A stretch of 43,071 nt of DNA from a virus (IMGVR_UViG_3300017613_002508:1-43071), one strand, 5' to 3'. Counted from the stretch's first letter, positions 597 through 38,764 are shown. Numbers and translations: made by a program. Notes: generated from the sequence alone by a model not told the origin.

Positions 597-762
597 TTTG
601 CCTTTCGATATATTCATCCTGTGTTTCATCATTCTCTTTTATTTGTTCAACTGTGATATTCAAGGTTGTACGTAGCTGAACATTACTTGTAAGCAGATAG
701 ATAAGACTACTTAAAGCAATGATTCTTTCCACCCATCTCCATATATCTATCTTCTTTGTCAT
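505..762 (-). CDS. Small single-TM protein of the lysis cluster
   Basis: The 85-residue product has a short basic start, one membrane segment at about residues 12-26, then a polar Glu/Asn/Gln-rich helical region and a Gly/Glu-rich acidic tail. The start ATG overlaps the stop of the fibre-like gene upstream (ATGA), indicating translational coupling. Its 3' third overlaps the next gene out of frame. With one membrane anchor and a polar extramembrane part it could be a spanin subunit or a pinholin or antiholin-like protein. Sequence alone does not separate these options. Confidence 0.5.
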   Translation of the reverse strand: MTKKIDIWRWVERIIALSSLIYLLTSNVQLRTTLNITVEQIKENDETQDEYIERQNEINGKWLMLYDYFIAPGAGSGTEEETEGN

Positions 763-2012
763 AATGCCTCAGTTAATGCTTCATAAAACCAACTCGATCC
801 ATTTGATATAACCTTATAAACAAGAGTGGTTCCATCTGAGTCAAGTATTATATACGATGCTCCAACTCCTACATTAGCTGGTGTGTCACCTATTGCAGAA
901 TCCAACTCAGCATCCAAGGGCGCACCATCGGTAAGACTTGCAGATATTGTAGGTTGTTTGAATCTACCGGATACTATTTCAAAACCGTCAATTGTAATAT
1001 CAGCAATCTCAGTTCCCTCTGTAGTTGTATTGTTAGCGGCCACAAAAAAATCAACCTCTGTCATTGCATTAAAATTACTATTTCCTCCCCCTATATGAAG
1101 GGTATTCGTTGAAGTTAAATTCCCTACAGACAACAATGACACATTTTCTTCTGCAAGAGTATAATGAGGAGCATTAATATTTCCTAACTTCATAGTAGCA
1201 TCTGCCCGTTCTGTATACCCCGATGCTGGATTGGAACCAATGATAAGTTGTTCCCCGAACATATCAATCTCTCCCCCTCCACCAATAAACACATCACCGT
1301 ATTCTGAGTAAGCGAAATAGTTCCTCCCTGTTGCGGGAGATATACCATGATCATTATGGTAAATCCCATAATAAGCCCCCAAACTATCATTCGGAATACC
1401 ATTGTCAACGAATTCCATAGCTATCATTGTTAAAGAATCCATTTTTACATAGTCATCAAAAGAGGCATTTAAAGACAATGTTTTAGCCTCTTCTACATCA
1501 ACTCTTGAAGAATTTGGAGTCCAAGTCTGAATAGAAACTGATGCACCAACCGCTGTTTGAATAAGAATAGTATCATCTACTTCTGGCTCAAATCTAATAT
1601 AATGTGCATTTGAATTTACCTTGGCGCTTTCTGCCTTTAGATTAGAAATTTCTAAAGGTGTTTCATTTCCAGCTATGTAATTTCCTGTGTACGATTGATC
1701 CGTACTAATAAATTTCAAATCGCGATTTAAAACAAAGAGCTTCGAACTTGAATTTGTAATCTGAAAAGTATCTGCCTTCCACCAGAAATAATTATGCCTT
1801 ATATTCGATAATTCTAAATCTACACTTCCAAACCTAACATTCCATCCTATCCTATTTGTTAGAATAGGAATTTGATCAGCCATATTTATAGTGCCGTAGG
1901 GAAGTTCAAGTAATCTACCTTTAACTGTCAGATCACCTCTGATCGTTCTCTGTTGACCAAATAGAAGTAGGCAAGGTAATACGAATAACAGGATAAATAT
2001 AAATCGTTTCAT
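759..2012 (-). CDS. Exported modular fibre-like protein, copy 3
   Basis: The product is 417 residues. A classic Sec signal peptide (residues 1-20, Lys/Arg then a Leu/Ile/Phe-rich core) ends at Gly before Gln-Gln. Next comes the RTIRGDLTVKG module and a short PYGTINMAD segment that it shares almost exactly with the protein at 4112-5350. A variable Ser/Thr/Asn-rich beta region follows, containing a conserved YSEYGDVFIGGGGEID block. The last ~70 residues form a C-terminal module (TDGAPLDAELDS, then a DSDGTxLxYKxxSxG pattern) of a type I associate from memory with phage fibre C-termini. No catalytic motif is evident. A signal peptide on a fibre-like phage protein is odd, because virion proteins normally assemble in the cytoplasm. 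It may be released or displayed on the host envelope. Confidence 0.75.
   Translation of the reverse strand: MKRFIFILLFVLPCLLLFGQQRTIRGDLTVKGRLLELPYGTINMADQIPILTNRIGWNVRFGSVDLELSNIRHNYFWWKADTFQITNSSSKLFVLNRDLKFISTDQSYTGNYIAGNETPLEISNLKAESAKVNSNAHYIRFEPEVDDTILIQTAVGASVSIQTWTPNSSRVDVEEAKTLSLNASFDDYVKMDSLTMIAMEFVDNGIPNDSLGAYYGIYHNDHGISPATGRNYFAYSEYGDVFIGGGGEIDMFGEQLIIGSNPASGYTERADATMKLGNINAPHYTLAEENVSLLSVGNLTSTNTLHIGGGNSNFNAMTEVDFFVAANNTTTEGTEIADITIDGFEIVSGRFKQPTISASLTDGAPLDAELDSAIGDTPANVGVGASYIILDSDGTTLVYKVISNGSSWFYEALTEAL
1875..1934 (-). repeat. 60-bp identical module shared with 5216-5275 (copy A)
   Basis: These 60 bases are identical to 5216-5275, and similarity continues for about 20 bases further into the signal-peptide end (about 20 of the next 24 match). 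They encode the constant segment just after the signal peptide in two of the three exported fibre-like proteins. The flanking variable regions differ strongly, so the block looks like recent duplication or recombination at a module border. Confidence 0.95.
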
Positions 2013-2356
2013 TTCTTATGCATTAATGATTTAACCCAGGATCTAAGCCTATCCAATGACAGACCAATTAGTAGTGCACTCCACATAGTAAGTTCTACTG
2101 TAGATTCACTTTGAAAAAAGAACTCTGATAGATTAGGCCAGAACACTATACCTATAGCTATAAGCATAAGGTTAACAAGGATCCGCTTCCAGCCGCCCCA
2201 AAATGAAGGCCAACTCCATCCTGTCTTCTTTGCATTATTCCCCACTCCCATGAAGAATACAACGAGCATAGCAATCACACCCCATATATAGAAAGCAATG
2301 AAGTCATTAACCGGAACTCCATTCAGCATCTTCTCAAATATTATTCCATCGTCCAT
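2009..2356 (-). CDS. Three-TM small membrane protein, holin candidate
   Basis: The 115-residue protein has three predicted membrane segments (about 19-39, 59-75 and 88-104), a Trp/Gly-rich loop with Lys residues between the first two, and a basic C-terminal tail. Size, three-segment topology and placement beside an exported protein and downstream of the SHGC-motif protein fit a class I-like holin. The next gene's ATG overlaps its TGA. It lies directly after a strong intrinsic terminator, so it may be expressed by readthrough or from a local promoter. The sequence matches no holin family I can name with certainty. Confidence 0.5.
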   Translation of the reverse strand: MDDGIIFEKMLNGVPVNDFIAFYIWGVIAMLVVFFMGVGNNAKKTGWSWPSFWGGWKRILVNLMLIAIGIVFWPNLSEFFFQSESTVELTMWSALLIGLSLDRLRSWVKSLMHKK

Positions 2357-2380
2357 GATAATTGCTTTAGATGATTATGT

Positions 2381-2409
2381 AAAAGTAGGGAGTACCGAAG
2401 CACTCCCTA
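2381..2409 (-). terminator. Intrinsic terminator with UUCG tetraloop
   Basis: On the minus strand a 10-bp stem (including one G-U pair) is closed by C-G around a UUCG loop and followed by CTTTTA. The arms are 2386-2395 and 2400-2409, and the U-rich tract lies at 2381-2385. It sits between the membrane protein genes ending at 2416 and starting at 2356. It would separate, at least partly, the last lysis genes from those upstream. Confidence 0.85.
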
Positions 2410-2415
2410 TATTCC

Positions 2416-2841
2416 TTACCCGGTTGGTTCCTTCTTGATTATTAAATCAATTATGAAATCAACTACGCTTTTGATAAATAAAAGGTTTGCTGATCGTACT
2501 CCGGCTGCTGCTGCTGCTGCCGTTGCACCCCAAATAAGAGTTTGCCACCATATAGAATCTGCTAAATATCCTACATTGGCAAATTGTCCGAAGAAAGACA
2601 CTGCTATGGCAATAACCGACACAACTGCCACTTTCTGCCATTTCACCGTTAACTTCAGTAACCTGATTACCGGCTCACCTAAAAAGGTGGCAACACCAGC
2701 AATCCCCAAATAAGTTGCAAAAAATACTCCATAGTTGTCATAGAGATCCTGCCAATCGGTAGGGACTACAACATCCTGGGCAATCAACACTCCTGCTCCT
2801 ACGAGCAGAAACGCAAGCACTAAAAACAAAAACTTTTTCAT
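2416..2841 (-). CDS. Multi-TM membrane protein with N-terminal signal or anchor, possible holin
   Basis: The 141-residue product starts with a signal-peptide-like segment (residues 1-21, ending Ala-Gln-Asp). It then has hydrophobic segments at about 38-55, 70-90 and 98-115, the last with a run of alanines, and an amphipathic C-terminal helix ending in Lys/Glu. It lies between the SHGC-motif protein and a UUCG-loop terminator. Holin or holin partner is the best guess from topology and neighbours. If the leader is cleaved the N-terminus would lie in the periplasm. I do not recognise the family. Confidence 0.55.
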   Translation of the reverse strand: MKKFLFLVLAFLLVGAGVLIAQDVVVPTDWQDLYDNYGVFFATYLGIAGVATFLGEPVIRLLKLTVKWQKVAVVSVIAIAVSFFGQFANVGYLADSIWWQTLIWGATAAAAAAGVRSANLLFIKSVVDFIIDLIIKKEPTG

Positions 2842-2879
2842 AATAGATCTATTTAGTGAAACATAAGGTTCTGCACAAG

Positions 2880-3311
2880 TTACATAATTTCTATTGTAAT
2901 ATCTTCTCCACGAATAAGTGCAGCTAACATTTTCTCAATAAGCCGCATCTCATATTTTGTAGAATAGAGTATCTCTCCTTTAACTTTATTCTCTCCGGTG
3001 CCAATACATCCATGAGATTGTTTAGCATTTCTCAGCCTATGAAATCTTATACCAGTAAAATGTGGTACATCTAAAACAAGAGGAAGTAATCGAGTAAACT
3101 TTGGGCTCATGGTAAGAGCTATCTTATAGGTCCCATAAGGAATAGCTGTCTCTCCGAACACTTTAGTTTCGCCAGCATCGAGCAGATCACCATCCTTATT
3201 ATAATCCCGCACCTGATCCTCCATGGTATCTGAAAAGTATTTACCATCAATAAACAATGATCCTATGGTATATTCAGATCCTAAGTACCTTCTCTTCAAT
3301 AATAATTTCAT
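2880..3311 (-). CDS. DUF5675-like protein with SHGC motif, cell-wall/lysis candidate
   Basis: The 143-residue protein matches the pattern I associate with DUF5675 phage proteins: a short N-terminal beta meander, Ile-Pro-x-Gly-Thr-Tyr near residue 57, then a Phe-His at 90-91 and Ser-His-Gly-Cys-Ile at 99-103. The His/Ser-x-Gly-Cys arrangement resembles the active site of L,D-transpeptidase (YkuD) folds, which act on peptidoglycan. No signal peptide is present, so a holin would be needed for access to the wall. It sits among candidate holins, and no other endolysin is visible in the window, so it could be the endolysin. Function is inferred from motif and context. Confidence 0.6.
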   Translation of the reverse strand: MKLLLKRRYLGSEYTIGSLFIDGKYFSDTMEDQVRDYNKDGDLLDAGETKVFGETAIPYGTYKIALTMSPKFTRLLPLVLDVPHFTGIRFHRLRNAKQSHGCIGTGENKVKGEILYSTKYEMRLIEKMLAALIRGEDITIEIM

Positions 3312-3329
3312 AGTCGCATAAATTAATTA

Positions 3330-3683
3330 TTATAACTCTGGTGTTACTCCTCTTGTATTGTGTGGTACCATCTCTCTTATTAATCTATCCATTCGATCAT
3401 TTATCCTGGCAAACTCTTCTTTATCAAATGCCTCATGATTATCAAGACTTTCACGCATCAGAGAATTAGCCTCTCTTAACTGATTCAAATATATTGCCAT
3501 CATGGTATTCGATACATAACTTTTCTCAATAGCTTCAGTCTTATTCTCAATGGCTTTTATTCTAAACGGAGCAGCTACAGCAAAGGATCCAGCTGCAAGA
3601 ATAATTGCAACAGTTACTGGAATGAAAATACGCATGAGCGTCTTTCGCATCTCCTGTAAAAAAAGTTTTTCGGTTTCAGACAT
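3330..3683 (-). CDS. Single-TM protein with cytoplasmic start and long helical domain
   Basis: I chose the ATG at 3683 (117 residues), six bases past the upstream stop, over a TTG at 3713 that would overlap the upstream gene. The product has a charged amphipathic N-terminus (1-16), one membrane segment (about 17-37, Ala/Ile/Val rich) and then a charged helical region rich in Glu, Arg, Asn and Met to the C-terminus. This is another spanin-like or membrane-tethered coiled-coil topology inside the lysis cluster. Which of the two such proteins in the window is the true i-spanin cannot be settled from sequence. Confidence 0.6.
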   Translation of the reverse strand: MSETEKLFLQEMRKTLMRIFIPVTVAIILAAGSFAVAAPFRIKAIENKTEAIEKSYVSNTMMAIYLNQLREANSLMRESLDNHEAFDKEEFARINDRMDRLIREMVPHNTRGVTPEL

Positions 3684-3688
3684 GATTC

Positions 3689-4108
3689 CTATTGTTTTAA
3701 AGTTATTTTCCAATCTCGAAACTGTCTATTCGTCCAGAACCATGCAATCCACCAGGTAAGAGCCATAAACTTTGGCATACTTACCATCAATGCTATTGGC
3801 TGTTTTACAAGATCAGCAAACCATAACATACCACGACCATACAATGAACTCTCACCCACATACCACCAATAGTTCCCTGCAATAAGATTAAAGATCAAAT
3901 CAAAAGCGATAAACCTACCCAGTAGATACATTACTATATAGACCGGATTAAAGCGAAATAAAGCCCATACAGCGATCCATCCTATCACATGGACAGATTC
4001 CATTACATGATGTATAACCTGCCATCCACGAAGACGGAATGCATCCCCTGCAGCATCAAATGCCACAAGTAGTAACAGTATCAATAATATCCATTTAATC
4101 CTACTCAT
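3689..4108 (-). CDS. Four-TM membrane protein of unknown function
   Basis: The 139-residue protein is strongly hydrophobic and aromatic (many Trp and Phe), with membrane segments at about 6-22, 36-52, 56-78 and 105-124 and a short basic tail. It starts four bases before the stop of the exported fibre-like gene upstream. It is the only gene seen in the window that clearly ends in TAG. Trp-rich small membrane proteins in phages can be holins or superinfection-exclusion factors, but nothing in the sequence decides between these. The neighbourhood favours an envelope role. Confidence 0.6.
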   Translation of the reverse strand: MSRIKWILLILLLLVAFDAAGDAFRLRGWQVIHHVMESVHVIGWIAVWALFRFNPVYIVMYLLGRFIAFDLIFNLIAGNYWWYVGESSLYGRGMLWFADLVKQPIALMVSMPKFMALTWWIAWFWTNRQFRDWKITLKQ

Positions 4109-4111
4109 TGT

Positions 4112-5350
4112 TTATAGTGCTATTGTTGCTGTCCAATAAACCCAATTCGTTCCATCAGACATAATTTTGTATGTAAGTCCTGACCCGTCAGAGTCAATGA
4201 TAATGTATGAAGCTCCGGCTCCTGCTGCTGAAGGTGTAGTTCCTGTTGCTGAATCAAGTTCTGCATCCAAGGGTGCACCATCGGTTAAGCTGGCTGAGAT
4301 AGTTGGTTGTTTGAAATGGCCTGATAATATTTCAAGACCATCAGTTGTTATCTCAACAATATTTGTTCCTGTTGTGGTTGTAGTATTAGCTGCTGCATAA
4401 AAAGCATGTCTTGTTGCTGTATTTAAATCTGCTGACGCTCCACCATAAAAAACAACATTAGAAAGTTCTGTTGATGATCCTAATAGTAACGCAAAATCTT
4501 CTTCAGCATTTGTGTAATGAGGAACTATAACACCACCTGCCTTAACAGTAGCATCTGTTCTTGAAGTATATATACCTGCATCGCCTCCTACTTTGATGAA
4601 TGCTCCTACTTGATCAATCTCTCCCCCTCCACCAATGAATACATCTCCATATTCTGAGTAGAGGAAGTAGGTTTTGTCTGCTCCGCGAAGTCCGTCATCA
4701 AGGTTGTAGATTCCATAGACCGAGCCTATGCTATCAGGATCAATACCTCGATCTCTTAATCGTATTTTTACTGCAATAACAGAATCAACAACCATGTAAT
4801 CATCATAATATCCATATAGATTAAGAAGAATTTGCTCTCCTATTTCAACACGATCTGTTGCTGCTGAAGTATTTACATATGATGTAATACCCACCACTTC
4901 CTGAGATGTTATTCTTATAGTATCATTAGTGCTGGGAAGAAGTGCACTACCTAATAAATGTGAACTAAATTTATCTGTCTTTATATTATTTGTTCTATAT
5001 GATAAATATTGTCCAATGATATTATCCCACAATGTATCTACTTCTGAATTCACAAATTGCCATACATAATCCCATGTAAATGTTGACTTATTTCCGGATA
5101 AAATAACAGTATCAGACGTAAAAGAGAATGTATTAGCATACGGTGAACTTAATATAACATTAGAATTTCCCGTTTTATACTTCCAATCGAATCCGGGAGT
5201 TTCACTTCTATAATAATCAGCCATATTTATAGTGCCGTAGGGAAGTTCAAGTAATCTACCTTTAACTGTCAGATCTCCCCTGATAGTTCTCTGTTGCCCA
5301 ATCACCATGATTGGAATGAGCATCAATAATATAATAAGTAACTTTTTCAT
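4112..5350 (-). CDS. Exported modular fibre-like protein, copy 2
   Basis: The 412-residue product has a Sec signal peptide (residues 1-19, ending Ile-Gly before Gln-Gln). The RTIRGDLTVKG/PYGTINMAD module follows, with DNA identical to copy 3 over 60 bases. A variable beta-rich, Asn/Thr/Ser-rich middle contains YSEYGDVFIGGGGEID. The C-terminal module is KQPTISASLTDGAPLDAELDS plus a DSDGSGLTYK region. The middle shares little with copy 3 apart from that block, so variation is concentrated where a ligand-binding surface would be. Its ATG overlaps the stop of copy 1 upstream. No enzyme motif is visible. Receptor masking, a secreted decoy or host-surface binding are possible roles. Confidence 0.75.
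   Translation of the reverse strand: MKKLLIILLMLIPIMVIGQQRTIRGDLTVKGRLLELPYGTINMADYYRSETPGFDWKYKTGNSNVILSSPYANTFSFTSDTVILSGNKSTFTWDYVWQFVNSEVDTLWDNIIGQYLSYRTNNIKTDKFSSHLLGSALLPSTNDTIRITSQEVVGITSYVNTSAATDRVEIGEQILLNLYGYYDDYMVVDSVIAVKIRLRDRGIDPDSIGSVYGIYNLDDGLRGADKTYFLYSEYGDVFIGGGGEIDQVGAFIKVGGDAGIYTSRTDATVKAGGVIVPHYTNAEEDFALLLGSSTELSNVVFYGGASADLNTATRHAFYAAANTTTTTGTNIVEITTDGLEILSGHFKQPTISASLTDGAPLDAELDSATGTTPSAAGAGASYIIIDSDGSGLTYKIMSDGTNWVYWTATIAL
5216..5275 (-). repeat. 60-bp identical module shared with 1875-1934 (copy B)
   Basis: This is the partner of the identical block in the gene at 759-2012. It encodes the constant segment directly after the signal peptide. Identity over 60 bases without synonymous differences contrasts with the C-terminal modules of the same two genes, which carry many synonymous changes. 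Confidence 0.95.
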
Positions 5351-6891
5351 AGTGCGATTGTTAGTATTTGATATTGCCAGTTAGTACCATCTGATTCAAT
5401 ACGATATAGAAGCCCCGTTCCATCCGAATCGAGTATAGTGACGCTCCATCCTGCGCCGACAGTTGCCGGTGTAGTATCCGTCACTGTATCGATCTCTGCA
5501 TCTGTGGGTGCCCCGTCTGTTAGAGATCCTGTGAGTTGAGGTTGTTTCAAATAGTTAAACCCATCTGTACCTATTGTAATAGCAGTCATAGTACTCAAAT
5601 CAAATGTATTATTCATGAATTTTGTCTGTGTACTAAAGGTGCCATATCCACCTGCTTTCAGATGTGGTAAATAAATGTCACGACCGGCATCATATGTATC
5701 ATAGAGAAAAATAAATTCAGTCACATCTTCACAATGCAGCGAATCATATCCCGCTGTCCATGGTTCTCCATCTTCTGTAATGAATACCCTTGGTGGATTA
5801 TGAATATGAATTGCCTTATTAGAATTTCTGAATAACGTAGCACCGAGATAAAGAATACTCCCGCCATCAGCTTTTATTGCTTCATCAAATCCATCAAATA
5901 TATTTTGGTATGCTGCTACGCTTGCCCCTCGTCTAATCTCCAATCCCTGACTACCCAAAGCCCTTGAATTATCACTGTGGAAATAAGAATAAGTTACAGT
6001 TCCCCCATCATTATATCCAAACTCCAAAACATCTCCACTACCTGACGAAGAATTATGATCAAAGTAACATCGCGTGAAACTTCCTGAACCATCAATACCC
6101 ATCAAATCATACACAACCTCTGTCGATCTGAAAATACAACCACCGAATGATAAACCATGAATCGATGTTCCCCATGATGATGAAGAGCTATCAGTTGATA
6201 ATACAAAATCAATATTTGAAAAGATTAACCAGGAGTGTATATTCGGAGAATCAAAATCATCCTCTGCTGTAAATACAGTACCAAGTGTATAGAAAAAATT
6301 AGTATCCCCAACGATTAGTTCATCATTGGCTGGCATTATAATAGAATCCGAAGTATTTCCTGCAATAGGATATCCCACAACATTCCCAGTAAACGGATTC
6401 AAATTCCATCCTAAAAACTGCGCTTCACGATCTCCCACAATAGTAGAATCAGTCGCATAACGAAAATAGCTCTGTGTGCTACCTCCGGGATGTGTTATAT
6501 TAATGCTATCACCAATAATAGATTCTCCAGTTATCCATATAAGAGCATAAATTGAATTCACTCTTTCAAGATATGGAAGAATGTCTTTTAAATCATACGT
6601 TCCAGCACCATAACTCAAACCTAACCTTCCATTAAATCCATGTGGTAATTTACCCTCAAGAGAACTGACTGCCTTCTTGGTGGTTTTAAAAGGATTCGCT
6701 TCTGTGCCATCACCTATTAGATCATTTCCATTAACAGAAATATACAAATACTGAGCTGTATCTAAATATTCAAGCTCACCTGACTCATAGAAGACACCAT
6801 TAACATTTAAATCACCCCGAATAGTTCTTGTCTGAGATATAGCCAAAGATGTTGATAACAAGAATAACAATATGACTATTAACGCTCTCAT
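5347..6891 (-). CDS. Exported beta-helix-like fibre protein, copy 1
   Basis: I start the gene at the ATG at 6891, which gives a standard signal peptide (MRALIVILLFLL..., ending Ile-Ser-Gln); an upstream ATG at 6939 would add 16 basic residues. The product is then 514 residues. After RTIRGDLNVNG it enters a region typical of parallel beta-helix (pectin-lyase-like) proteins: ISVNGND...GTEANPFKTxxKAV at the start, then repeated short Asn/Phe/Gly strands. It ends with the same C-terminal module as its two neighbours (LTDGAPTDAEID, DSDGTGLLYR). Beta-helix folds in phages often bind or cleave polysaccharide, but I see no catalytic set. It is the founder-like, longest member of the exported trio. 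Confidence 0.75.
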   Translation of the reverse strand: MRALIVILLFLLSTSLAISQTRTIRGDLNVNGVFYESGELEYLDTAQYLYISVNGNDLIGDGTEANPFKTTKKAVSSLEGKLPHGFNGRLGLSYGAGTYDLKDILPYLERVNSIYALIWITGESIIGDSINITHPGGSTQSYFRYATDSTIVGDREAQFLGWNLNPFTGNVVGYPIAGNTSDSIIMPANDELIVGDTNFFYTLGTVFTAEDDFDSPNIHSWLIFSNIDFVLSTDSSSSSWGTSIHGLSFGGCIFRSTEVVYDLMGIDGSGSFTRCYFDHNSSSGSGDVLEFGYNDGGTVTYSYFHSDNSRALGSQGLEIRRGASVAAYQNIFDGFDEAIKADGGSILYLGATLFRNSNKAIHIHNPPRVFITEDGEPWTAGYDSLHCEDVTEFIFLYDTYDAGRDIYLPHLKAGGYGTFSTQTKFMNNTFDLSTMTAITIGTDGFNYLKQPQLTGSLTDGAPTDAEIDTVTDTTPATVGAGWSVTILDSDGTGLLYRIESDGTNWQYQILTIAL

Positions 6892-6967
6892 AATACTTTT
6901 CTTTTTCTTATTATCCAGTGTAACCATGCCGATAAACATCCTGGACGATCATCTTTTTTCACTCTCA

Positions 6968-12784: not shown

Positions 12785-12993
12785 TATTTTCTTATCAATT
12801 TCTTCTTAGTAAGATTACCGTCTACATCGTATTCTATTTCGTGTATAAACTTCAAAGTACCAGAAAAATAATATTCAATTACCAAGGGATTAAAGTTAGC
12901 ATCGTATGATGTTATACGCATCTCATCAACATCAGTCGGATAATCCCAAAACTTCGCCTCAAGGCGATTTAATATTTCCTTATCAAACGACAT
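12784..12993 (-). CDS. Hypothetical 69-residue protein
   Basis: The small soluble protein has a helical start (FDKEILNRLEAKFW), a beta-hairpin-like body and a basic C-terminus (NLTKKKLIRK). Its ATG lies in the last codons of the preceding gene. The stop overlaps the start of the next gene. I assign no function. The coupled arrangement suggests expression together with the fibre genes. Confidence 0.6.
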   Translation of the reverse strand: MSFDKEILNRLEAKFWDYPTDVDEMRITSYDANFNPLVIEYYFSGTLKFIHEIEYDVDGNLTKKKLIRK

Positions 12994-13279
12994 TATACTT
13001 CTCTAACTGTCTATAACAATCATCAATAATACTCTCGATCTCTGCAATACTGAGTACATTATATGCGTCAGTAACCGTTGCATCTCCAACAATCTCGTAT
13101 AGATTGAGTATCTCAAGGTAGTTTCCTATCAAGATATTCTTAGTATTGAGGAACTCAACGAACCAAAAATTACCAGTATGGTAGGCCATGGCATTGGCAA
13201 GATCCAAGCCAAGCCTACCGTGTAGCAATTGAATGATCCCTATATCCTCATTCAGCTGTGTCGTGTCTAACAGTTTCAT
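12983..13279 (-). CDS. Hypothetical 98-residue helical protein
   Basis: The product is mainly helical and slightly acidic (NAMAYHTGNFWFVEFLNTKN in the middle, IAEIESIIDDCYRQLEKY at the end). It begins 32 bases inside the 3' end of the multidomain glycosyltransferase gene and ends inside the following gene. No membrane segment or motif is visible. Its family is unknown to me. Confidence 0.6.
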   Translation of the reverse strand: MKLLDTTQLNEDIGIIQLLHGRLGLDLANAMAYHTGNFWFVEFLNTKNILIGNYLEILNLYEIVGDATVTDAYNVLSIAEIESIIDDCYRQLEKYNVV

Positions 13280-15620
13280 CCTGGTATAAATTTTCTTTTA
13301 GCTTCTCATCCAGTACATATTCGATATCATCATTATCAATCCAATGACGAATAAGGTTCTTTTCAGCCACTGGATCATGGTGATTAGATGGATTAATCTT
13401 AATATCGGACCAATAATGAGACTTCTCTGACTGGAAGAATGTGAATCCAGTGAGTATAATACGCTTAAACCCGAGCTTTCTGGCCGTTGCAATACCCAGT
13501 ATACCCACAGTTGGAAACGCATTTATATGTGCTGCTACCTCAGAAAACAGCTTTGAATAATCATCCTTCTCATTATAGGTCCAAACCGTATTGCCCAAGG
13601 AAATCAACTTATCATAGTTATGGGCCCATGCATTATGCATCTGTTTGGCTTCTGTATACTTTTGATACAATGTCTCACTTATGGGAAGGACACCGAATAT
13701 CGGGTAGTCAACCCTCGTAGATGGTATAATCTCATGATAAAGTGAGGATATATTCAGATCAACACGATCACCTATCGGTTCATAATCCTCCCCTTTCTTA
13801 AAATTATTGCATCTCATCACAAAGGAGTTGTCTATCTCCCTGGATAGGTCTGAACTAAATGGACCATTACCAATAACAGAGCAGCTATCCTCACCATTGA
13901 TCCGATCATTAATGAATGAGAATATAAGGTTATCCGGATCAAGGCCAGTATTTACAATCTCCTTAAATCTTCTTGATGCCTGGTTATGCATGATAATAGG
14001 CTTAACACCTTTCATGTGTTCTGAATCAAAGATCCGTACATATTCTGCAGGCAGCTCAGTAACACCAATACCTTTTGCATCGTTCATAAGCATTTGGAAT
14101 GTTTCTCCATCGGGTTTATCAACCTGCTCATTGATAGATATCCACTTTCTCAGGAAATCCCTTACTTTATCATTATTCCTAAAATAAAGTGTTCCAACAA
14201 GTATCTCATGAAATTCATCTGGTGTTCCTTTTCGCCATGTAAGGGCGTGGAAGGCAAGATCGGTCTTAATAGTATCAAAGAAAACAGGCTTTTCCATTAC
14301 CTCAGCATCAGCATCGAGCCATACAACATCCTTATTATGCTTATCCATCTCCTGAAGGATCACCTGGGGCTTCATCTGAGTATTCTTTATCCAGGATCCT
14401 TGTGGACGTATACCCACGATCTCAAAGAATAGGTTATGTTTTCTCAATGATGCATCCAGAACCTTAACCTCCTGCTCATAGGGAGTGCCATGGGTATACA
14501 TACTTACGTATACGATATCATTCTTATTGGCTTTCTGAAGCGCCAGCTTCCCTTTTATGAACTTATAGTTCTGCAGGTTCTGCTTCTCTACATTAGGATC
14601 TATGCCCTTACGATTTAGCAACCTGCTGGCATGTTTTTCAGCATCTTTATATTGTCCAAGCCAATAGTTGCATATCCCAAGTTCAAAATCAGCAAGGTAA
14701 TCATACTGTGTACGGTGAATAAACAGGATATCATTCTTCGGATATGGCATCTTGAGGACCTTTTCGAAGAATATCTTTGCAACCGAATACTTTTTCTTCT
14801 CCCTGAACAGCTGACCCATCATGAATAATGCCTCAAAACGAATAGGTCTGGTGTTATAAGCCTCGGTAAACTGCAATATAGCACTATCAATATCCTTTGA
14901 TAGATACAAACAGATACCTACCTGATAAAGCGAATAGTAGATCTCCTCGGCCCATCCACCCATCTGGATCCTTTTCTGATAACTTTTGATAGCCTCATCG
15001 TAGTTCCCCATATTCTGATGCGTTTGCCCCAAATAAAAGTGTGGGCGGCTACGTCCAGGATGGTCAGCTATCTCTTGAGTACAAAGTTTAATATCCCTGT
15101 TATACTTATCCCCCCTGGATCCACCATCATAACCATGACTAACCCTTAAGAAGGGGTGTGTCTCCACTTTAAAGCTTCCTTTAGTGGTAAGATACTCATG
15201 AGTATATCCCTCATAGAACCAGTCTATATGACCAGAAACGAATAGTGGTTGTGAGAAGTCAATATTTCCCTCATATCTTATCTGGTACATATCTGCTGCC
15301 AGGTCCGATTTATTAAATCGTTTATCAGCAACGATCATCATATCAGCATCCATCAATAAGAGGTAATCGGCTTTTCCCTTAGCCTTTTGAACCAGCTCGG
15401 TTCTATTATGACCAAAATTTATAAAGGGACTCTCGTGGATCTCTCCGGGGATCCCTTCAAGCTGTTCCTTTACAATGGCTATTGTATTATCAGTAGATCC
15501 TGTATCTATGACAATCCAATAATCCAGGAGATGCTTACACGAGTTTATCAGTCTCGGAAAGATCTTCTCCTCATTTTTAACTATTGCACAAAGGCAAATT
15601 GTTTTCTCAACTTTCTCCAT
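13248..15620 (-). CDS. Multidomain glycosyltransferase: GT2 - TPR - GT-A - GT29-like
   Basis: The 790-residue protein has four recognisable parts. Residues 1-180 are a GT2 domain (CAIVKNEEKIFPRLI, DTGSTDNT, DxD as DAD at 91-93). Residues 190-335 are TPR-like helical repeats. Residues 368-560 form a second GT-A-like domain with DAD at 436-438. Residues 575-765 resemble the sialyltransferase family GT29: an L-motif-like CSVIGNGPFSS...EID...MRCN at about 580-605, and an S-motif-like PTVGILGIATARKLG...LTGF, then YW and HD, at about 703-749. It lies directly downstream of a Thr-rich collagen-like fibre gene, so that fibre is the most obvious acceptor. Modification of host glycans is the alternative. 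Domain calls are by motif. Confidence 0.8.
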   Translation of the reverse strand: MEKVEKTICLCAIVKNEEKIFPRLINSCKHLLDYWIVIDTGSTDNTIAIVKEQLEGIPGEIHESPFINFGHNRTELVQKAKGKADYLLLMDADMMIVADKRFNKSDLAADMYQIRYEGNIDFSQPLFVSGHIDWFYEGYTHEYLTTKGSFKVETHPFLRVSHGYDGGSRGDKYNRDIKLCTQEIADHPGRSRPHFYLGQTHQNMGNYDEAIKSYQKRIQMGGWAEEIYYSLYQVGICLYLSKDIDSAILQFTEAYNTRPIRFEALFMMGQLFREKKKYSVAKIFFEKVLKMPYPKNDILFIHRTQYDYLADFELGICNYWLGQYKDAEKHASRLLNRKGIDPNVEKQNLQNYKFIKGKLALQKANKNDIVYVSMYTHGTPYEQEVKVLDASLRKHNLFFEIVGIRPQGSWIKNTQMKPQVILQEMDKHNKDVVWLDADAEVMEKPVFFDTIKTDLAFHALTWRKGTPDEFHEILVGTLYFRNNDKVRDFLRKWISINEQVDKPDGETFQMLMNDAKGIGVTELPAEYVRIFDSEHMKGVKPIIMHNQASRRFKEIVNTGLDPDNLIFSFINDRINGEDSCSVIGNGPFSSDLSREIDNSFVMRCNNFKKGEDYEPIGDRVDLNISSLYHEIIPSTRVDYPIFGVLPISETLYQKYTEAKQMHNAWAHNYDKLISLGNTVWTYNEKDDYSKLFSEVAAHINAFPTVGILGIATARKLGFKRIILTGFTFFQSEKSHYWSDIKINPSNHHDPVAEKNLIRHWIDNDDIEYVLDEKLKENLYQDETVRHDTAE

Positions 15621-15668: not shown

Positions 15669-18600
15669 TTAAGATGACAATTTCTTAAGTATAAAGGTAT
15701 GCTCTTCATCATTTATCTCACCAGATGAACTGCTTGAATTAGTGAACATTTCGTATTCACCCTCAGTGACTGTTACTTTAGTGCCTACTTCAACATAATC
15801 ATCAGTATCAAGTTGTATAATAGCAATTATAGCAGCAGATAGATTACCATAGCCAGAACCTCTACCATAGTTACGCAAACCACCCTTATGTTGAGTAGTA
15901 CCGCCATTTACTCTATGTATACCCATAATAGTAACCCTACCTGCACCAGCATTCTGTACCCCACCAACAAAGGAAACCTCGTACCAACCAGTCTCACTAA
16001 CTACTATCCGCTCAGGATTAGAGACACCACTATGTGAATAGATGGAGTCTACCTTATCCTGCTCATCCCAGGTCCACCAAACCTCTGTGCCAGCTGTACC
16101 ACCGATATCCTGACCTGCTGTATCACTCTTACCAAGTATACACATTGGAGTATCACTTGATGCTAATTCAGATAGAGTAACAGTTCCAACAACAGCATCT
16201 GTTAGAGCCATATTAGTACCTGTAAGACCTAAAGATGTATTGCTACCACCAATATAATAGGTATCAAAGTAACCAGAACCAAATCGTACAGTACTCGTGC
16301 CTATACTTCCATTGCCATTTGATACTGGTTTTAGAGGCATGTTATTTGGTATCGTTATCTCAATTGCTGGAGCCAAGGTCAGACATATTGTACCATCAAC
16401 ATAAAATCTTGTTCCAGCTGTAGGATGATCCTGTATATAACTGTTACCACCATGTCCATCAAGATAGAATAAACTCTCTTGTGGGATAGCTATATCACCA
16501 CCAACTATTAGATCAGAACCAGCGTACCTTAATCCGGATGAATATGAAAAACCTGTTGTACCTAAGTTGGTATATGGTATCTGTCCTGTATCACCAAAGG
16601 ATACTCCTGATCCTGCTGGTCCAGTGGGACCAGTAGCACCAGCATCTCCCGCTGATCCTGTTGGTCCGGTTGGTCCTGCTGAGCCAGTACCTCCAGCAAC
16701 ACTATCTACATAACCCTTGTCTGGTATCCAACGATCACCATAATTTGCGGGACCGCTAACAGAATAATCTTCAGCATAATAAGCACCTCTATTATCTATT
16801 TCATCATATATTCGAACACCACCTATAGTCACATTTATCTGTGCTGATCCTGTAACAGCCCCTGTATTCTGATTGAATTCCATTAAAGAACCACTAATGG
16901 TAGAGGCAACACGGGCATGTAAACCAGACCCTGTTGATGATAAAAGTGCAGATGATGATTCTACATAAACCCTTCCTTGATAACCGGTTACATCATTAAC
17001 CAATTCAATTCTATTCTGACTTACTTCTGATACTTCGGTATTTATATGTAAATATGTCTTACCACCTCCTCCATATAAATATATCTTATCAAAAGATGAT
17101 CCAGTCGTACCAATATACATTGAACCACTACCATCATTATTAATAATCTGTACACTTCCTGTAACATTTCCTCCAAGCCCAACATTTCCTCCCGATTCAG
17201 TTAGACCATTTTCAAACGTATAACTCGCTCCTGAACCAGTAGGACCGGTTGCACCTGTAGGACCAGAAACTCCTGTTGGCCCTGTTGGTCCTGCCGCGCC
17301 TGTCCCACCTGTAGCTGCATCTACATATGCTTTAACGGCTCCATAATCAGGAATCCAGCGATCATCTGTAGAACCCGTATTAGAATAATCTTCATTATAG
17401 ACGAGTCCTATCTTAGTAAGATCATCATATATCACCATATCTACAGAAGAGATGGCTATAGTTCTTGTTATACCATTCTCTATGTATTCAAGTTGTGAAT
17501 TAGAAGTACTTGCAAGTACACGACCACCAGTACCATCTACAAGAGCTTGAATAGATATATCACCATTCAGTATCTCGATCTCACTCTCAAATGTTAAGTA
17601 GTTATAATAAAGACCAACTCTATAATTATCACCTAAATTCTCATAAGTTTCTACTATTGCAGAACATCGTTCAGTATTTAAGTTAATTCCTCTATAATAA
17701 TCAGATCCTGTACCTAAATTAAAATATGCTGTTGCATCAGGAATTATACTAATATCCGTGTGTGCTGTTCCTCCAAGAACAACTGTTCCACCTGATTCAG
17801 TTAGACCATTATCAAACGTATAACTTGTTCCAGCGCCCGTTGGTCCTGTATCTCCAGGCGAACCTGTCGGACCAGTAGGACCAGGCACCGTAGAATCAGC
17901 CCCCGTAGGTCCAGCTGCCCCTGTTAAACCAATAGATCCAGTAGGTCCCGTAGAACCGGTAGCACCTGTAGCACCGGTAACTCCTGTGGGTCCAGTTGGC
18001 CCAGGTACTGTAGAGTCAGCTCCTGTCGCTCCTATAGGCCCAGTAGCCCCTGTTGCTCCTGTTGCTCCCGTAGATCCTGTTGGGCCAGTGGGTCCAGAAA
18101 CAGTCGAATCATTACCCGTTGGTCCAGCGGCTCCCGTTGGGCCATCGGCACCTGTGGGTCCAGCGGGGCCAGCAGCAGTTGAGGCTGCACCAGTGGCACC
18201 TGTAGCCCCAGTAGGGCCTGATAAACCGGGAGCGGTGGAGTCTGCACCTGTCGGTCCCTGTGCACCTGTCTCGCCTGCACCCGTTGGCCCCGTAGGACCG
18301 GTCGGACCTGTTGGGCCAGTAAATCCTGCTGTTGCTGCAGGGCCTGTTGCGCCATCAGCACCAGTGGGACCAGTAACGCCATCAGTACCTGTAATACCTC
18401 TTATACCAGTTGGACCCGTAGGACCTGTTACCCCAGCGCCTGTCGGACCAGTGGGCCCTGTGCTGTTCGGTCCTGTGGGACCAGGTGTATAGGCTCCTCC
18501 CTCAAGGTTTATATACCATTCTGAATATGTGCCAGTTCCTGTATTGTTGCTTGAGTTAATAGATAACTCTCCTGTAGATGCTGTATAATTAACAACTACT

Positions 18601-19289
18601 CCAGTAAATAATGTGTTAATAGTATTTGCAACTACAATATCCTGTCCAACAGTATAAGCACGATCAATCGATATGACCATATCAACTCCTGTTGGATGTG
18701 AGGTAGGAATAACTGTTGTAGATGAAGATGTAGCTGCATACCGATCAGCATATCCTGTAGCACCTTGCGGTCCTGTTGGCCCTGTACCCTGCGGTCCAGT
18801 GGGTCCAGCTGCTGTTGAGTCAGCACCTGTGGGGCCATAATCACCCGTTGGACCAGCTATACCTGTCGGTCCTTGTGCTCCTGTAGGGCCACTTGGACCG
18901 GTAGCTCCCGTAGGACCGACCGTTCCTGTTACGCCCGTTGCACCAAGAGCACCAGTAGATCCTATACTACCCGTAACACCTATTGCTCCGGTAGGCCCAG
19001 CGGGACCTGTAGCACCTATCGATCCTGTAGGACCTGATGCACCAGCAGGACCAACACTACCCGTTGGTCCAGCGGGGCCAGTAGATGCTGTACCAGATGC
19101 ACCTGTCGCTCCCTGGGGCCCGGTGGGACCGGCAGGACCGATTCCTCCAGTTGAACCCCTGGCAATGGAAGCTTGATCTTCATATCCAAGAAGGATAATA
19201 TTCTTATCATCCGGATGGGAAGGTTCTATGTATGTCTGTCCTCCCGTTAGAGAAGGAGAGGGACCAAGCATTTGTGCACCTGTTGGCAT
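15669..19289 (-). CDS. Collagen-like phage fibre with C1q-like C-terminal domain
   Basis: The 1206-residue protein has Gly-X-Y collagen repeats, mostly GPT, GAT and GPA triplets, at about residues 50-180, 269-488, 661-686 and 870-896. Globular inserts interrupt them. Two of these (about 488-685 and 688-884) are a tandem duplication: both begin with [14 protein letters not shown] and end with DRWIPD...[13 protein letters not shown]. The C-terminal part (about 1035-1206) has the GWYEVSF...VNGG...LDTDDYVEV pattern of C1q/TNF-like trimer-forming jelly rolls. The layout recalls the Bacillus exosporium protein BclA. It is expected to be a trimeric adsorption fibre or head fibre. The glycosyltransferase gene follows after 48 bases. 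Confidence 0.85.
16600..19150 (-). repeat. Collagen-type GGN-CCN-ACN triplet repeat tracts
   Basis: Four tracts of nine-base units encode Gly-X-Y triplets: roughly 18750-19142, 17826-18485, 17232-17309 and 16602-16680. The units vary at third positions, so the DNA is less repetitive than the protein. Such tracts are prone to length change by recombination or slippage. Confidence 0.85.
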
Positions 19290-30757: not shown

Positions 30758-33700
30758 TTATCGTCTTTCAATCTGCATCCTTCTGTCTATAACTGCAAAA
30801 GGATCACTCTTTTCAGTCATTTTCTCCTGAAACATCTCCATGCGCGAGAAGAATTCGGGAACGGCTGCTCGTTGCTGCTCCTCTTCGGGTATGATATTTT
30901 GAACATCTTCCTTAAGAATCATTAGCATCTGTAATGCATCTACACGGTCAAAGTTACCGTCTTTGTACCAGTAAATCAATTCCTGTAATAATGGTATGCT
31001 GCGTATAGTGTGTAAATTCAGTCGCTCACTCCCTGGAGCAACGGGCGATGTAAGCCATATTAGAATGAGCTCCCTGCCCCATTTTTTGATCGGCAATGTG
31101 GCTGGTGTTCCAGCGCCACGGTTTAGTAAGGACTTATCAAAGATCTTATCATGAACGATCTTAGGAGTATCACATAAAAGGTGAGCATGATGCTTACCAT
31201 TAAAGTATGTGAACAATCCCTTCCAGTTATTCTCATAGTTGCACTTCGCATTATAGTATAATAATAACCGGCGCACATTCTCATAGTAGTTATTGGCTGT
31301 ATTTGGTCTTCCGGTATATTCAGCTACAATGCGCTCGGTAAGCTTATTCATTATAAAAGTGCTTCCCAATGAATCGGTTGTTGATTCATCATGATCATAA
31401 GTATCATTACCGGCCAGGTATATCCCATGAGGAATAATACCTTCAGAATTTGCCACCGGATGTTCATAAATCACAATGGCACCTTCGATATTCTTCTTAT
31501 CGGTCTGCGGGTAAACGCGAATAGGTTTTGCTGTTGGATCCAGTTTCCATTCATACTTCTCAGTCTCCAGGTTAAGCGAAAGCTTTCCAACATATTCAAG
31601 ATCCTCAAAATCTTCAGGGCTGGAGCGAAGATGGTTCAGATGCTCCTTAAGATCATTGATCGGGAAGATCGTTCCTCCCAGGCGCATGATAGCCTCCTGT
31701 GGCTTGCGTGGCTCTTCAGCAATAAACCTTGTTATAGTCTCAGGATTCTTTGTCGCCTTTATCACATGGTCCCGGGATGCATCTGTAAGCTGACGAGCGA
31801 TATCATTGATGCTATTACCATCTTTATCCATAGCACCTTCAAGGTTTTGCTCTACGGATACAAAATGTCCACACTTGCCATTAGATGCTGCATCGTCCCA
31901 TATGTTGGGAACAAGATGAACATTGTAAGCTCCACCTTCATAAAACAACTGTTCAAGGCCCATGATATCTACATCCTCTGTACCTCCAGTACCAAAGGCG
32001 CACTGCAACCCAAAGGTCAAGCGTCCCTGCTGCATACTCTTCAAGGATATATTCCAGGCTTTGATAAGATGAGGATTCTTCCCTGATTCTTCATACAATA
32101 TCAATTTACCCCTTTTACCACGAGCCTTGTTCCAGTTGTTCTTAAGAGTAACTCCGATGATCTCACTCTTGAATCCTCTTTCTATTCTTAATCCTCCAGT
32201 CTCATAATAGTAGGAAGATCTTTTATGCATTATTGAATCATGACGCTGCCTACGCTTTCCCCATGGAGTGTATTGCTCCACATGGTCCATCATCTCCCAG
32301 GCTTTAGTAAGAAGCCCGTCACTAACCAGATATTCTTTTTCATCTGCAAATACATAGGACTTGGATCCGGGGATAAGATAATAGTTCCTATTACACATCC
32401 CTCCACCTTTGAATGAATTATGTGTTGGAATAAAATTAGTTGTCAAATAAAGATGATCCTTACTGTTTATATAGATGCAGGTTGATTCTTCTTTATAATT
32501 AAGTTTTTTAATTGCTTTAATACCTATTCTATCCTGATGCTGTTGTTTTCTGTTAGCAATAGCATTCTCAAGTGTTTTTGCTTTTCGTTGTAGTTTAAAT
32601 ATTTGGTAATAAGTTGTAATAGATAAAACCCAAGTATCTCTAACTATTGATTTATTACCATTTCCAAAATCAGTTAATTTCCCGCCAAGATTTGTTTTTG
32701 ATTTCTTACATCGAATTCCAAGGCTTCTTAAAATCCAAGCAAGATCATCAATGAGAGTTTCAGAACTACTTGTGAATCGTGCATTTCCAGCTTTGCTAAC
32801 AGTTCCATCAGTATCCATAAGTCCCTTGACAAGCTCTGTACGTTGTTCTGTGGACCCGTATTTATATTCATCTGGAATGAACTTATTATAGGATTTAACA
32901 TTAAGTTTCAACTTTTTAATATCACGCATTAACTTATGATACCCCTGAATCTTTGATTTAATAATATATCCATAATCGGTCCACTTATCTTTTGCAAGAT
33001 TATAATTAGAACCAAGCAAAAAGTTCATGTAAAATAATATCTCGGTATCTGCAGTCGAAAATTTAATTTGACTTCCAGAGATTCCTCCATCACCTATTAA
33101 TAGACCAAGAAGATATGGATCTATATTATATTCTTTCTCATCAAATTTGACGGGAAAAATAGATGGTACTTTATACGAGTAAGATGACTTGCTTGTATCT
33201 TTGTGCTGTTTAAGATTCTGACTTAATAAATATTCTGTAGTAACAACATTATACTTACCTTTCGTATTGTAGACTCCCCATAGATGCTCAAGACCACAAC
33301 GCACCTTTCTCCCATCATGAAACTCAACTTCATAAACATCACATTTACCTTGAGGTATCACTTCGAGTATCTTAACTGGCACTCCTAACTTTCCTATTAC
33401 ATAATCACCTTCTCTTAAATCTCCCATAGACACAAAGCCTATAGGAGTTAGAACAGGTTCACTATTTGGTTCTTGATACCCACGACCACGAGTTTTAATG
33501 ATTGCTGCATGTTGACCATATTTTTCAGCTTGCTCCAGATAATGATAATACTGATAATCGCCGTCCCAAAAATCAGGGAAGTCCCACTCACGATCTGCCT
33601 GGGCCTGCTGTAATAGAGCCTCCATATTAACAACAACTCCATCTTCCTCTTTAATCTCAACAGCTTTATAAATGGGAGAATAGTTCAGATACCAATAAAA

Positions 33701-33928
33701 ATAGCCGGGTATCCAATCCCGGCCTATATTATATCCATATACTGATCTTCTGGCTTCCTCTTCCCAAAACTTGTAGTACTTGCTTGAGGAGTGTGAGTTT
33801 GGTGGATAATTCGTATAGCGACCAAACTCCTTGAAGTGTAGTGCTGACTCACAGAACTCTTCAGTGTTATAATGGGGCGTACTCTTAAAATACCCATTCT
33901 CTATTATATCCGGTGCAACCTCTTCCAT
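30758..33928 (-). CDS. terL: Terminase large subunit precursor containing an intein
   Basis: The 1056-residue precursor is a DNA-packaging ATPase/nuclease interrupted at residues 152-504 by an intein. After splicing the Walker A-like segment reads KTRGRGY joined to SFKGGG, giving a 703-residue protein. The Walker B-like segment is KLILYEE at 608-614, with the acidic pair in place. The RNase H-like nuclease starts near IYLAGNDTYDHDE at 836-848, with Asp842 as a likely metal ligand. The N-terminal 150 residues are aromatic-rich, as in crAss-like terminases. The gene abuts the gene upstream and is followed by portal. Without splicing the P-loop would be broken, so activity should depend on intein excision. 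Confidence 0.9.
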   Translation of the reverse strand: MEEVAPDIIENGYFKSTPHYNTEEFCESALHFKEFGRYTNYPPNSHSSSKYYKFWEEEARRSVYGYNIGRDWIPGYFYWYLNYSPIYKAVEIKEEDGVVVNMEALLQQAQADREWDFPDFWDGDYQYYHYLEQAEKYGQHAAIIKTRGRGYQEPNSEPVLTPIGFVSMGDLREGDYVIGKLGVPVKILEVIPQGKCDVYEVEFHDGRKVRCGLEHLWGVYNTKGKYNVVTTEYLLSQNLKQHKDTSKSSYSYKVPSIFPVKFDEKEYNIDPYLLGLLIGDGGISGSQIKFSTADTEILFYMNFLLGSNYNLAKDKWTDYGYIIKSKIQGYHKLMRDIKKLKLNVKSYNKFIPDEYKYGSTEQRTELVKGLMDTDGTVSKAGNARFTSSSETLIDDLAWILRSLGIRCKKSKTNLGGKLTDFGNGNKSIVRDTWVLSITTYYQIFKLQRKAKTLENAIANRKQQHQDRIGIKAIKKLNYKEESTCIYINSKDHLYLTTNFIPTHNSFKGGGMCNRNYYLIPGSKSYVFADEKEYLVSDGLLTKAWEMMDHVEQYTPWGKRRQRHDSIMHKRSSYYYETGGLRIERGFKSEIIGVTLKNNWNKARGKRGKLILYEESGKNPHLIKAWNISLKSMQQGRLTFGLQCAFGTGGTEDVDIMGLEQLFYEGGAYNVHLVPNIWDDAASNGKCGHFVSVEQNLEGAMDKDGNSINDIARQLTDASRDHVIKATKNPETITRFIAEEPRKPQEAIMRLGGTIFPINDLKEHLNHLRSSPEDFEDLEYVGKLSLNLETEKYEWKLDPTAKPIRVYPQTDKKNIEGAIVIYEHPVANSEGIIPHGIYLAGNDTYDHDESTTDSLGSTFIMNKLTERIVAEYTGRPNTANNYYENVRRLLLYYNAKCNYENNWKGLFTYFNGKHHAHLLCDTPKIVHDKIFDKSLLNRGAGTPATLPIKKWGRELILIWLTSPVAPGSERLNLHTIRSIPLLQELIYWYKDGNFDRVDALQMLMILKEDVQNIIPEEEQQRAAVPEFFSRMEMFQEKMTEKSDPFAVIDRRMQIERR
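32417..33475 (-). mobile_element. LAGLIDADG intein in the terminase P-loop
   Basis: The 353-residue element starts at Gln152 (EPNSEPVLT...MGDLREGDYVIG, block A) and ends with THN before Ser505. A block-B-like segment with GLEH lies near residue 215. Two LAGLIDADG motifs are visible: YLLGLLIGDG at 272-281 and LVKGLMDTDG at 366-375, each with the acidic residue for metal binding, so the homing endonuclease looks intact. Gln at position 1 replaces the usual Cys or Ser nucleophile. The His-Asn end and Ser+1 are normal. Insertion in the ATP-binding loop is a classic intein site. Confidence 0.93.
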
Positions 33929-36478: not shown

Positions 36479-36813
36479 TAGTTTGGTCCTGTTATGAATT
36501 TAGTATCACTATCCGGATTAATAGCTGCCTTCACATGCATAGCCGGATGAATCACTTCATTAATGATCTTTTGAGTAAAGGGTGTTCTATATGAATTTCC
36601 ACCCACATAGAATACAATATCTTTTGTCTTTGTTTCACTATTAACGTGAGGATCGATCCAGTAGCAATCTATATACAGAGTATACAGAGGGGCCTGTTTT
36701 ATTTCTACCTGTTCATCTTTATCAATGCCAAGATTTTTTTCCCATTCGATCTTATCCTCTTCATTCGAATCGAAGATATAGATAGGAATTATGAACATTA
36801 GTTTTTCAGCCAT
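36478..36813 (-). CDS. Hypothetical 111-residue protein
   Basis: The product is soluble and mildly acidic, with beta-type segments (KLMFIIPIYIFD at the start, LYTLYIDCYWIDP in the middle) and a closing region with TPFTQKIINEVIHPAMHVKA. Its ATG lies inside the 3' end of the dehydrogenase-like gene (eight-base overlap), so it is coupled to the glycan cassette. I do not recognise a family. By context it may be a small accessory of the cassette or a regulator. Confidence 0.6.
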   Translation of the reverse strand: MAEKLMFIIPIYIFDSNEEDKIEWEKNLGIDKDEQVEIKQAPLYTLYIDCYWIDPHVNSETKTKDIVFYVGGNSYRTPFTQKIINEVIHPAMHVKAAINPDSDTKFITGPN

Positions 36814-38107: not shown

Positions 38108-38112
38108 ATCAT

Positions 38113-38152
38113 TTAGCTTTTAGTTTAAAAAATTAGCTTTTAGTTTAAAAAA
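38113..38152 (-). repeat. Perfect 20-bp tandem duplication at a gene junction
   Basis: TTAGCTTTTAGTTTAAAAAA is present twice in tandem (38113-38132 and 38133-38152) across the stop codon of the methyltransferase gene. Because 20 is not a multiple of three, the second copy changes the last residues and the stop position: with a single copy the gene would end at a TGA next to the dehydrogenase start. Confidence 0.95.
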
Positions 38153-38764
38153 TCCGTGTGCATTAGGTATTTCCTTATAAGCTTCTTTTATATATGGAAT
38201 CTTATTGTCAACACTTACTACCTTGAAACCAACATCATTGAATAGATCACACCACCATTGAAAATCCTCACATATCACATGCGAAGGATCCAGATTGTTT
38301 GTTCCTGCATAATACCGACCATCCTTCCCAAGTGGTACTATAACAAATATATTTTTTGTCATTGTTGTGAACTTGGGAAGTAATTGAATCAAGTTTTTAT
38401 GTTTAATATGTTCTAAGACATCTTTGATAATTATCCAATCATAGCGAGAAGGTACTGATGTTGACCAGTCTGCTTTAATCCAATTAAAAACATAATCTTT
38501 CACATCTGTTGGAACATTATCAAGCGCATATTCACTTATATCTGTACCCCATGCATTGTAATGGAGTAGCCGAAAAGCTTTTACAAGATACCCCTTAGCG
38601 CAACCAAAATCAAGAATGGTGTGCTTTCTTTCTATTTCAAGATAATTTATTATCTCATGTGCCAAGGGTATAGTCATCTCTGGCATCCATCGATAATTCT
38701 CATACATGCTTTTCCCGGTCTGCAGACCACGCTCAAAATAATCTCTATCATAAATCATAGCCAA
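38120..38764 (-). CDS. Class I SAM-dependent methyltransferase (Methyltransf_23-like)
   Basis: The 214-residue protein has SAM-binding motif I at 49-58 (TILDFGCAKG), the acidic residue after strand beta-2 near GTDIS (73-77), and a post-I motif with DVLEHI at 115-120, the pattern of small-molecule or glycan O-/C-methyltransferases. Its start overlaps the stop of the sulfotransferase gene upstream. The C-terminus was altered by the 20-bp tandem duplication at 38113. Substrate is unknown; a sugar or capsule glycan is likely from the neighbours. Confidence 0.8.
   Translation of the reverse strand: MAMIYDRDYFERGLQTGKSMYENYRWMPEMTIPLAHEIINYLEIERKHTILDFGCAKGYLVKAFRLLHYNAWGTDISEYALDNVPTDVKDYVFNWIKADWSTSVPSRYDWIIIKDVLEHIKHKNLIQLLPKFTTMTKNIFVIVPLGKDGRYYAGTNNLDPSHVICEDFQWWCDLFNDVGFKVVSVDNKIPYIKEAYKEIPNAHGFFKLKANFLN

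Follow-up and report, generated by a model that had tools for sequence, protein, structure and literature searches.

Phage tail fibres and beta-helix tailspikes, among them gp22-gp26 of the crAss-like phage crAss001, combine constant ends with a variable body, and the fibre genes of crAss001 adjoin its lysis genes; gp22 docks through residues 1-26 (PMC10172136). Three genes of an uncultured phage, here P1, P2 and P3, share the modular build and the place next to lysis genes and also sequence, through fibre-repeat homology in P1 and P2 and a tail-protein match in P3, but they differ from the virion fibres of crAss001 and phi14:2 in carrying predicted signal peptides and in lacking the presumed virion dock of their own clade. 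Phage proteins of unknown function with predicted signal peptidase I (SPI) cleavage that exposes a glutamine are known from the Porphyromonas gingivalis phages (Nixviridae; PMC10367356). P1-P3 resemble these in being phage-encoded with the same predicted cleavage, whereas the P. gingivalis cases are prophages of one oral species that were not described as fibre-like, and in the crAss-like case several large fibre- or lyase-like proteins are arrayed in a single fixed slot. The bacterial WceF is an exported glycanase with a tailspike fold (PMC7949094); as described, it combines a tailspike-like beta-helix with an export signal and an extracellular glycan target, much as is proposed for P1-P3, but it uses Tat, not Sec, and is encoded in a bacterial EPS operon rather than by a phage. 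Pectate lyases of family PL9 (PelN, Pel9A) are matched by a slot protein of one relative and not by P1-P3. Searches of an open-access library for signal peptides and tail fibres in crAss-like phages turned up no description of this arrangement.

The window, the whole 43,071-nucleotide stretch of contig IMGVR_UViG_3300017613_002508, has nearly all of its genes on the minus strand. Its major capsid protein (phrog_11589, E = 2e-96), portal (phrog_6547, E = 7e-100) and terminase (phrog_6681, E = 2e-114) are of crAss type, and the capsid protein is 35-38% identical to those of phi14:2, crAss001, DAC15 and cr85_1; by these sequence matches the phage is therefore crAss-like (Crassvirales) and far from every cultured member. 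The relatives found with 80-93% capsid identity are all uncultured contigs. The terminase large subunit (30758-33928) contains an intein-like insert of ~350 residues with a LAGLIDADG homing-endonuclease domain, whose N-terminal splice residue looks non-canonical by eye, and a surface-sugar-type cluster at 36806-42417 encodes UDP-glucose/GDP-mannose dehydrogenase, methyltransferase, sulfotransferase, radical SAM and glycosyltransferase-like genes. The features of P1-P3 are as follows, with a slash marking the predicted cut.

759-2012, minus strand: P1, open reading frame for a predicted exported fibre-like protein of 417 aa, 46% identical to P2
1956-2012, minus strand: predicted P1 signal peptide, 19 codons, score 6.27, MKRFIFILLFVLPCLLLFG/QQRTIRGD, Q at +1
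1875-1955, minus strand: P1 mature N-module QQRTIRGDLTVKGRLLELPYGTINMAD, 78 of 81 nucleotides as in P2, with three synonymous differences
762-962, minus strand: P1 C-module (SLTDGAPLDAELD...), 55% identical to an L011 protein
4112-5350, minus strand: P2, open reading frame for a predicted exported fibre-like protein of 412 aa
5297-5350, minus strand: predicted P2 signal peptide, 18 codons, score 6.62, MKKLLIILLMLIPIMVIG/QQ
5216-5296, minus strand: P2 mature N-module, from the nucleotide comparison with P1
4115-4318, minus strand: P2 C-module, matching the C-terminal block of P1 and P3
5347-6891, minus strand: P3, predicted exported protein of 514 aa with a tailspike-like middle (YISVNGNDLIGDGTEANPF...), 42% identical over its full length to an L011 homolog
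6835-6891, minus strand: predicted P3 signal peptide, 19 codons, score 6.58, MRALIVILLFLLSTSLAIS/QTRTIRGD
6796-6834, minus strand: P3 N-module QTRTIRGDLNVNG, the shared N-terminal block
5350-5553, minus strand: P3 C-module, the shared C-terminal block

Signal peptides were called with a home-made scoring script that looks for a positive n-region, a hydrophobic core, small residues at -3 and -1 and no later membrane segment. The initial annotation had assigned a Sec signal peptide to all three proteins, and the script agrees, picking exactly P1, P2 and P3 among the 27 window proteins of at least 180 aa. About 1 in 1,000 proteins pass in the background (1,049 proteins of at least 150 aa around related glycosyltransferase genes at 75 other phage loci), where the sole match outside the clade is one weak case; the chance of 3 in 27 is p ~3e-6 at a background of 0.1% and 0.002 at 1%. 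The predicted sites (LLLFG/QQRTIRGD in P1, IMVIG/QQRTIRGD in P2, LAIS/QTRTIRGD in P3) follow the Q-rule, a Bacteroidota-specific preference that applies, on average, to 71% of SPI substrates (PMC5837995). When the scan was run without a bias towards Q, the P3 cut fell two residues earlier, and Q stood exactly at +1 in 8 of 12 signal-peptide proteins of the clade (p ~1e-9, given a measured Q frequency of 3.5%). The P1-P3 sequences thus combine the n-region, core and -3/-1 residues of Sec/SPase-I precursors with the Q at +1 that marks those of Bacteroidota. No type IX secretion (T9SS) C-terminal sorting domain was found among ten proteins scanned with NCBIfam, and no outer-membrane route is evident.

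The genes are tightly packed and overlapping, with MK or MR starts. P3 most plausibly begins at 6891 (MRALIV..., after an A-rich leader); an in-frame ATG lies upstream at 6939, and the signal peptide stays intact from there too. At the nucleotide level P1 and P2 differ only synonymously in the mature N-module and share 29 of 57 positions in the signal peptide, and the near-identity begins at the predicted cleavage site and stops after residue 46. The mature module has therefore undergone a recent exchange or homogenisation, with both divergent signal peptides retained.

All three proteins share an architecture of signal peptide, constant RTIRGDL module, body and constant C-module of ~70 residues. 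The constant ends described in the initial annotation are present throughout (N-terminal block, 53% identity over 36 aa between P1 and P3 and 50% between P2 and P3; C-terminal block, 48-58%, E down to 1e-25), but its variable middle holds fully for P3 alone, because P1 and P2 are full-length paralogs, homologous from end to end (46%, E = 8e-117). The likeness of P3 to them is confined to its first 36 and last ~90 residues, with an unrelated middle. A segment of P1 and P2 (residues ~242-346; ~242-341 in P2) matches phage tail-fibre repeats in L005-L010, best for P2 in a 2947-aa fibre of L006 (69% over 98 aa). Residues 65-94 of P3 weakly match the tail protein phrog_4577 (E = 6.5e-5) at a YISVNGND...ANPF motif typical of beta-helix tailspikes. 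By sequence homology P1-P3 thus belong with tail fibres and tailspikes, P3 through these 30 residues only. No Pfam family was matched by P1-P3, nor any enzyme, lectin, polysaccharide lyase or carbohydrate-binding (CBM) family among the curated Pfam and NCBIfam sets; a PDB profile search with P3 gave a single chance match (E = 0.93), and AlphaFold models of P3 and P2 were of very low confidence (pLDDT 32 and 29).

The surroundings of the three genes define a slot, which runs from two conserved upstream genes to the lysis genes.

2416-2841, minus strand: holin-like membrane protein with a Q-rule signal peptide (VLIA/QDVV, score 6.46), 53% identical to a G396 and 28% to a G408 protein
2880-3311, minus strand: DUF5675 lysis enzyme (76.8 bits), 42% identical to crAss001 gp30, annotated as L,D-carboxypeptidase/transpeptidase
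3330-3713, minus strand: holin-like protein, a weak call (phrog_13712, E = 0.016)
12983-13279, minus strand: 98-aa marker gene at the upstream slot edge, 54-76% identical in four clade phages
13248-15620, minus strand: glycosyltransferase/TPR protein (Glycos_transf_2 and TPR) at the upstream slot edge, 51-61% identical in clade phages
15669-19289, minus strand: collagen-like tail fibre without signal peptide (tail fibre phrog_6320, E = 1e-64)

P2 and P3 lie ahead of the lysis genes and P1 just past them, and the DUF5675 enzyme bears out the earlier placement of the three genes in a lysis cluster. Small overlapping genes at 363-762 (363-632 in another frame of 505-762) are spanin-like in look, and the 363-632 gene has, by eye, an apparent LLLA/Q site.

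The small clade sample comprised four inner-clade phages in which the slot is covered (the window, G408, G411 and G417; G408 equals G419, and G411 equals G412 and L175) and one outer phage, G396. G408, G411 and G417 show the same order of glycosyltransferase (51-53% identical to that of the window), 98-aa gene (54-60%), variable genes, large signal-peptide proteins and small membrane, lysis and holin-like genes. Two or three large signal-peptide proteins occupy the slot in 4 of 4 sampled inner-clade phages, with lengths of 663, 495 and 610 aa in G408, 698, 241 and 187 aa in G411, and 638 and 267 aa in G417. All 11 such inner-clade proteins fall within the interval from glycosyltransferase to lysis enzyme or, for P1, adjoin the lysis genes (product of hypergeometric terms ~8e-12, for a zone defined post hoc). 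The mature parts in these three relatives are unrelated to each other and to P1-P3, except for a repeat domain of ~85 residues shared by the 663-aa and 698-aa proteins. The 698-aa protein matches PelN (NCBIfam, E = 2.8e-38; 132 bits, far below the equivalog cut-off of 740) and the Pel9A beta-helix (Pfam, 63 bits), and other slot bodies include a weak CBM_4_9 match and the fibre-type C-termini phrog_8780 and phrog_24754. The proposed action of P1-P3 on host polysaccharide is thus favoured by the lyase-like and CBM-like relatives, while P1-P3 themselves match no such family.

G396 (IMGVR_UViG_3300042991_000159, 99.8 kb, capsid 47% identical) is an outer relative whose full-length P3 homolog (42%) keeps the signal peptide and reads QTRVIRGDL. 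This gene sits within a tail-fibre cluster, overlapping one cluster gene by 4 nt, and the holin-like gene is ~70 kb away, so that lysis linkage is not universal; this placement weakens the argument for lysis timing and keeps a virion role alive. A G396 gene close to the homolog (L051 9855-10364) has a product of 169 aa that starts with a strong Q-rule signal peptide (VNG/QDYRQL) and matches no Pfam family; it may be an outer-membrane protein. The Q-rule sites, the retention of signal peptides at the slot while bodies change, and the signal-peptide P3 homolog in a distant phage together make export of P1-P3 well supported by sequence.

Searches of GenBank phages by tblastn with P1, P3, the P3 homolog and the C-module matched nothing, an alignment scan for the N-module gave no confirmed case, and the exact motif QxRxIRGDLxVxG was confined, within IMG/VR, to the G396 contig, its GTDB occurrences all being in chance frames. 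Real IMG/VR matches to the C-module pattern were confined to L012/L040 and L013/L043, with unrelated proteins in 18 other contigs, and the C-module profile was absent from 395 genomes of the Chitinophaga phylum. As to whether signal peptides always accompany the modules, as the initial annotation asked, they do in the G396 homolog and L013/L043, but L012/L040 carry the C-module without one. The L013 gene (371-2110) lies in an unrelated phage contig rich in G+C. Its fibre-like product has the C-module, starts with a signal-like segment and is flanked by two more proteins with hydrophobic N-termini, perhaps as an independent case. Domesticated host proteins were rejected as an origin, as neither module was present in the sampled host genomes.

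Virion fibres served as controls. The best of these, the phi14:2 virion proteins with MS/MS annotation, bear out the premise that such fibres are free of signal peptides, as none of them has one; the crAss001 fibres gp21-gp26 have none either, and no signal-peptide fibre was found in six reference crAss-like genomes (phi14:2, crAss001, DAC15, cr85_1, Fpv3, which is crAss-like by capsid, and ProJPt-Bp1, read with table 11 only), which rules out a feature general to Crassvirales. The collagen-like fibre of the window (1206 aa, GPTG repeats) has a first 60 aa that is 44-68% identical in clade phages, and by analogy with residues 1-26 of crAss001 gp22 this N-terminus is likely the virion dock of the clade. 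P1-P3 do not have this conserved N-terminus, whose docking role is presumed.

We consider it somewhat probable that P1-P3 form a swappable cassette of secreted, fibre-like proteins that bind or cleave glycans, with export or lysis as the means of release. They might instead be virion fibres after all, exported, folded in the periplasm and joined to particles at lysis as an exchangeable outer fibre. The tail-fibre cluster and 4-nt overlap of the G396 homolog, the virion-type repeats in P2 (69% over 98 aa) and the equivalence of the slot to the fibre-plus-lysis block of crAss001 all speak for such a role, which we nevertheless judge unlikely given the signal-free virion proteins of phi14:2 and fibres of crAss001 and the missing dock. 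Phage exclusion factors are often small proteins of the membrane or periplasm, and the strongly hydrophobic first segments of P1, P2 and P3 could be uncleaved anchors that hold fibres in the inner membrane, reaching into the periplasm to exclude superinfecting phages. Cleaved Bacteroidota precursors are, however, typified by a short core, permissive residues at -3 and -1 and a Q at +1, as seen here, and the break in P1/P2 similarity falls at the cleavage site, which makes anchoring quite unlikely.

Small membrane, lysis-enzyme and holin-like genes adjoin the slot in 4 of 4 inner-clade phages and the holin-like neighbour too has a Q-rule signal peptide, as might be expected if P1-P3 were periplasmic binders of glycan or peptidoglycan that aid envelope disruption. 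Yet the bodies differ completely among phages, a variability not expected of lysis functions, the lyase-like member looks like a pectate lyase and not a muralytic enzyme, and G396 lacks the lysis linkage; an accessory role in lysis is accordingly very unlikely. That the hydrophobic N-termini arose by chance or from wrongly called starts, and serve no function, would be a concern in that the scoring is a home-made heuristic only, but the rate of 3 in 27 against ~0.1%, its recurrence across five distinct phages and the MK/MR starts of overlapping, tightly packed genes leave this explanation scarcely credible.

Under the favoured reading, that of a secreted cassette, P1-P3 would be made together with structural and lysis proteins and would cross the inner membrane through the host Sec translocase. 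Bacteroidota signal peptidase I would cut just ahead of the glutamine, which would probably be capped as pyroglutamate, so that the mature chain would open at the fibre-type module. As this chain lacks the N-terminus of the clade's collagen-like fibre, it is probably a free and likely trimeric fibre rather than part of the virion. Judging by the lyase-, CBM- and fibre-like slot relatives, the bodies may bind or cut host surface glycans. The proteins would build up in the periplasm or arrive at the surface, to be released by export or lysis, and could then clear or cover capsule and exopolysaccharide, which would keep progeny from being caught on debris or on cells already infected. The constant ends would serve folding and secretion, and the bodies would be swapped to suit the local glycan.

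More tentatively, and with rather less than even confidence, we propose for the clade a secretome slot beside the lysis genes, in which export signal and position are kept while fibre-, lectin- and lyase-like proteins replace one another as cargo, such that the phage secretes surface-remodelling enzymes and adhesins to control adsorption, superinfection or release at the population level. Tail fibres are usually regarded as parts of the virion, and a conserved slot for exported fibre-like and glycan-acting proteins, if true, would add a secreted arm to the biology of crAss-like phages. It would be relevant to how these phages and capsule-switching Bacteroidota coexist and, should it hold for cultured members, to the slow or carrier-state lysis of the phages. 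The Q-rule, as a Bacteroidota-specific export code, can expose both phage-secreted proteins and host phylum from sequence alone.
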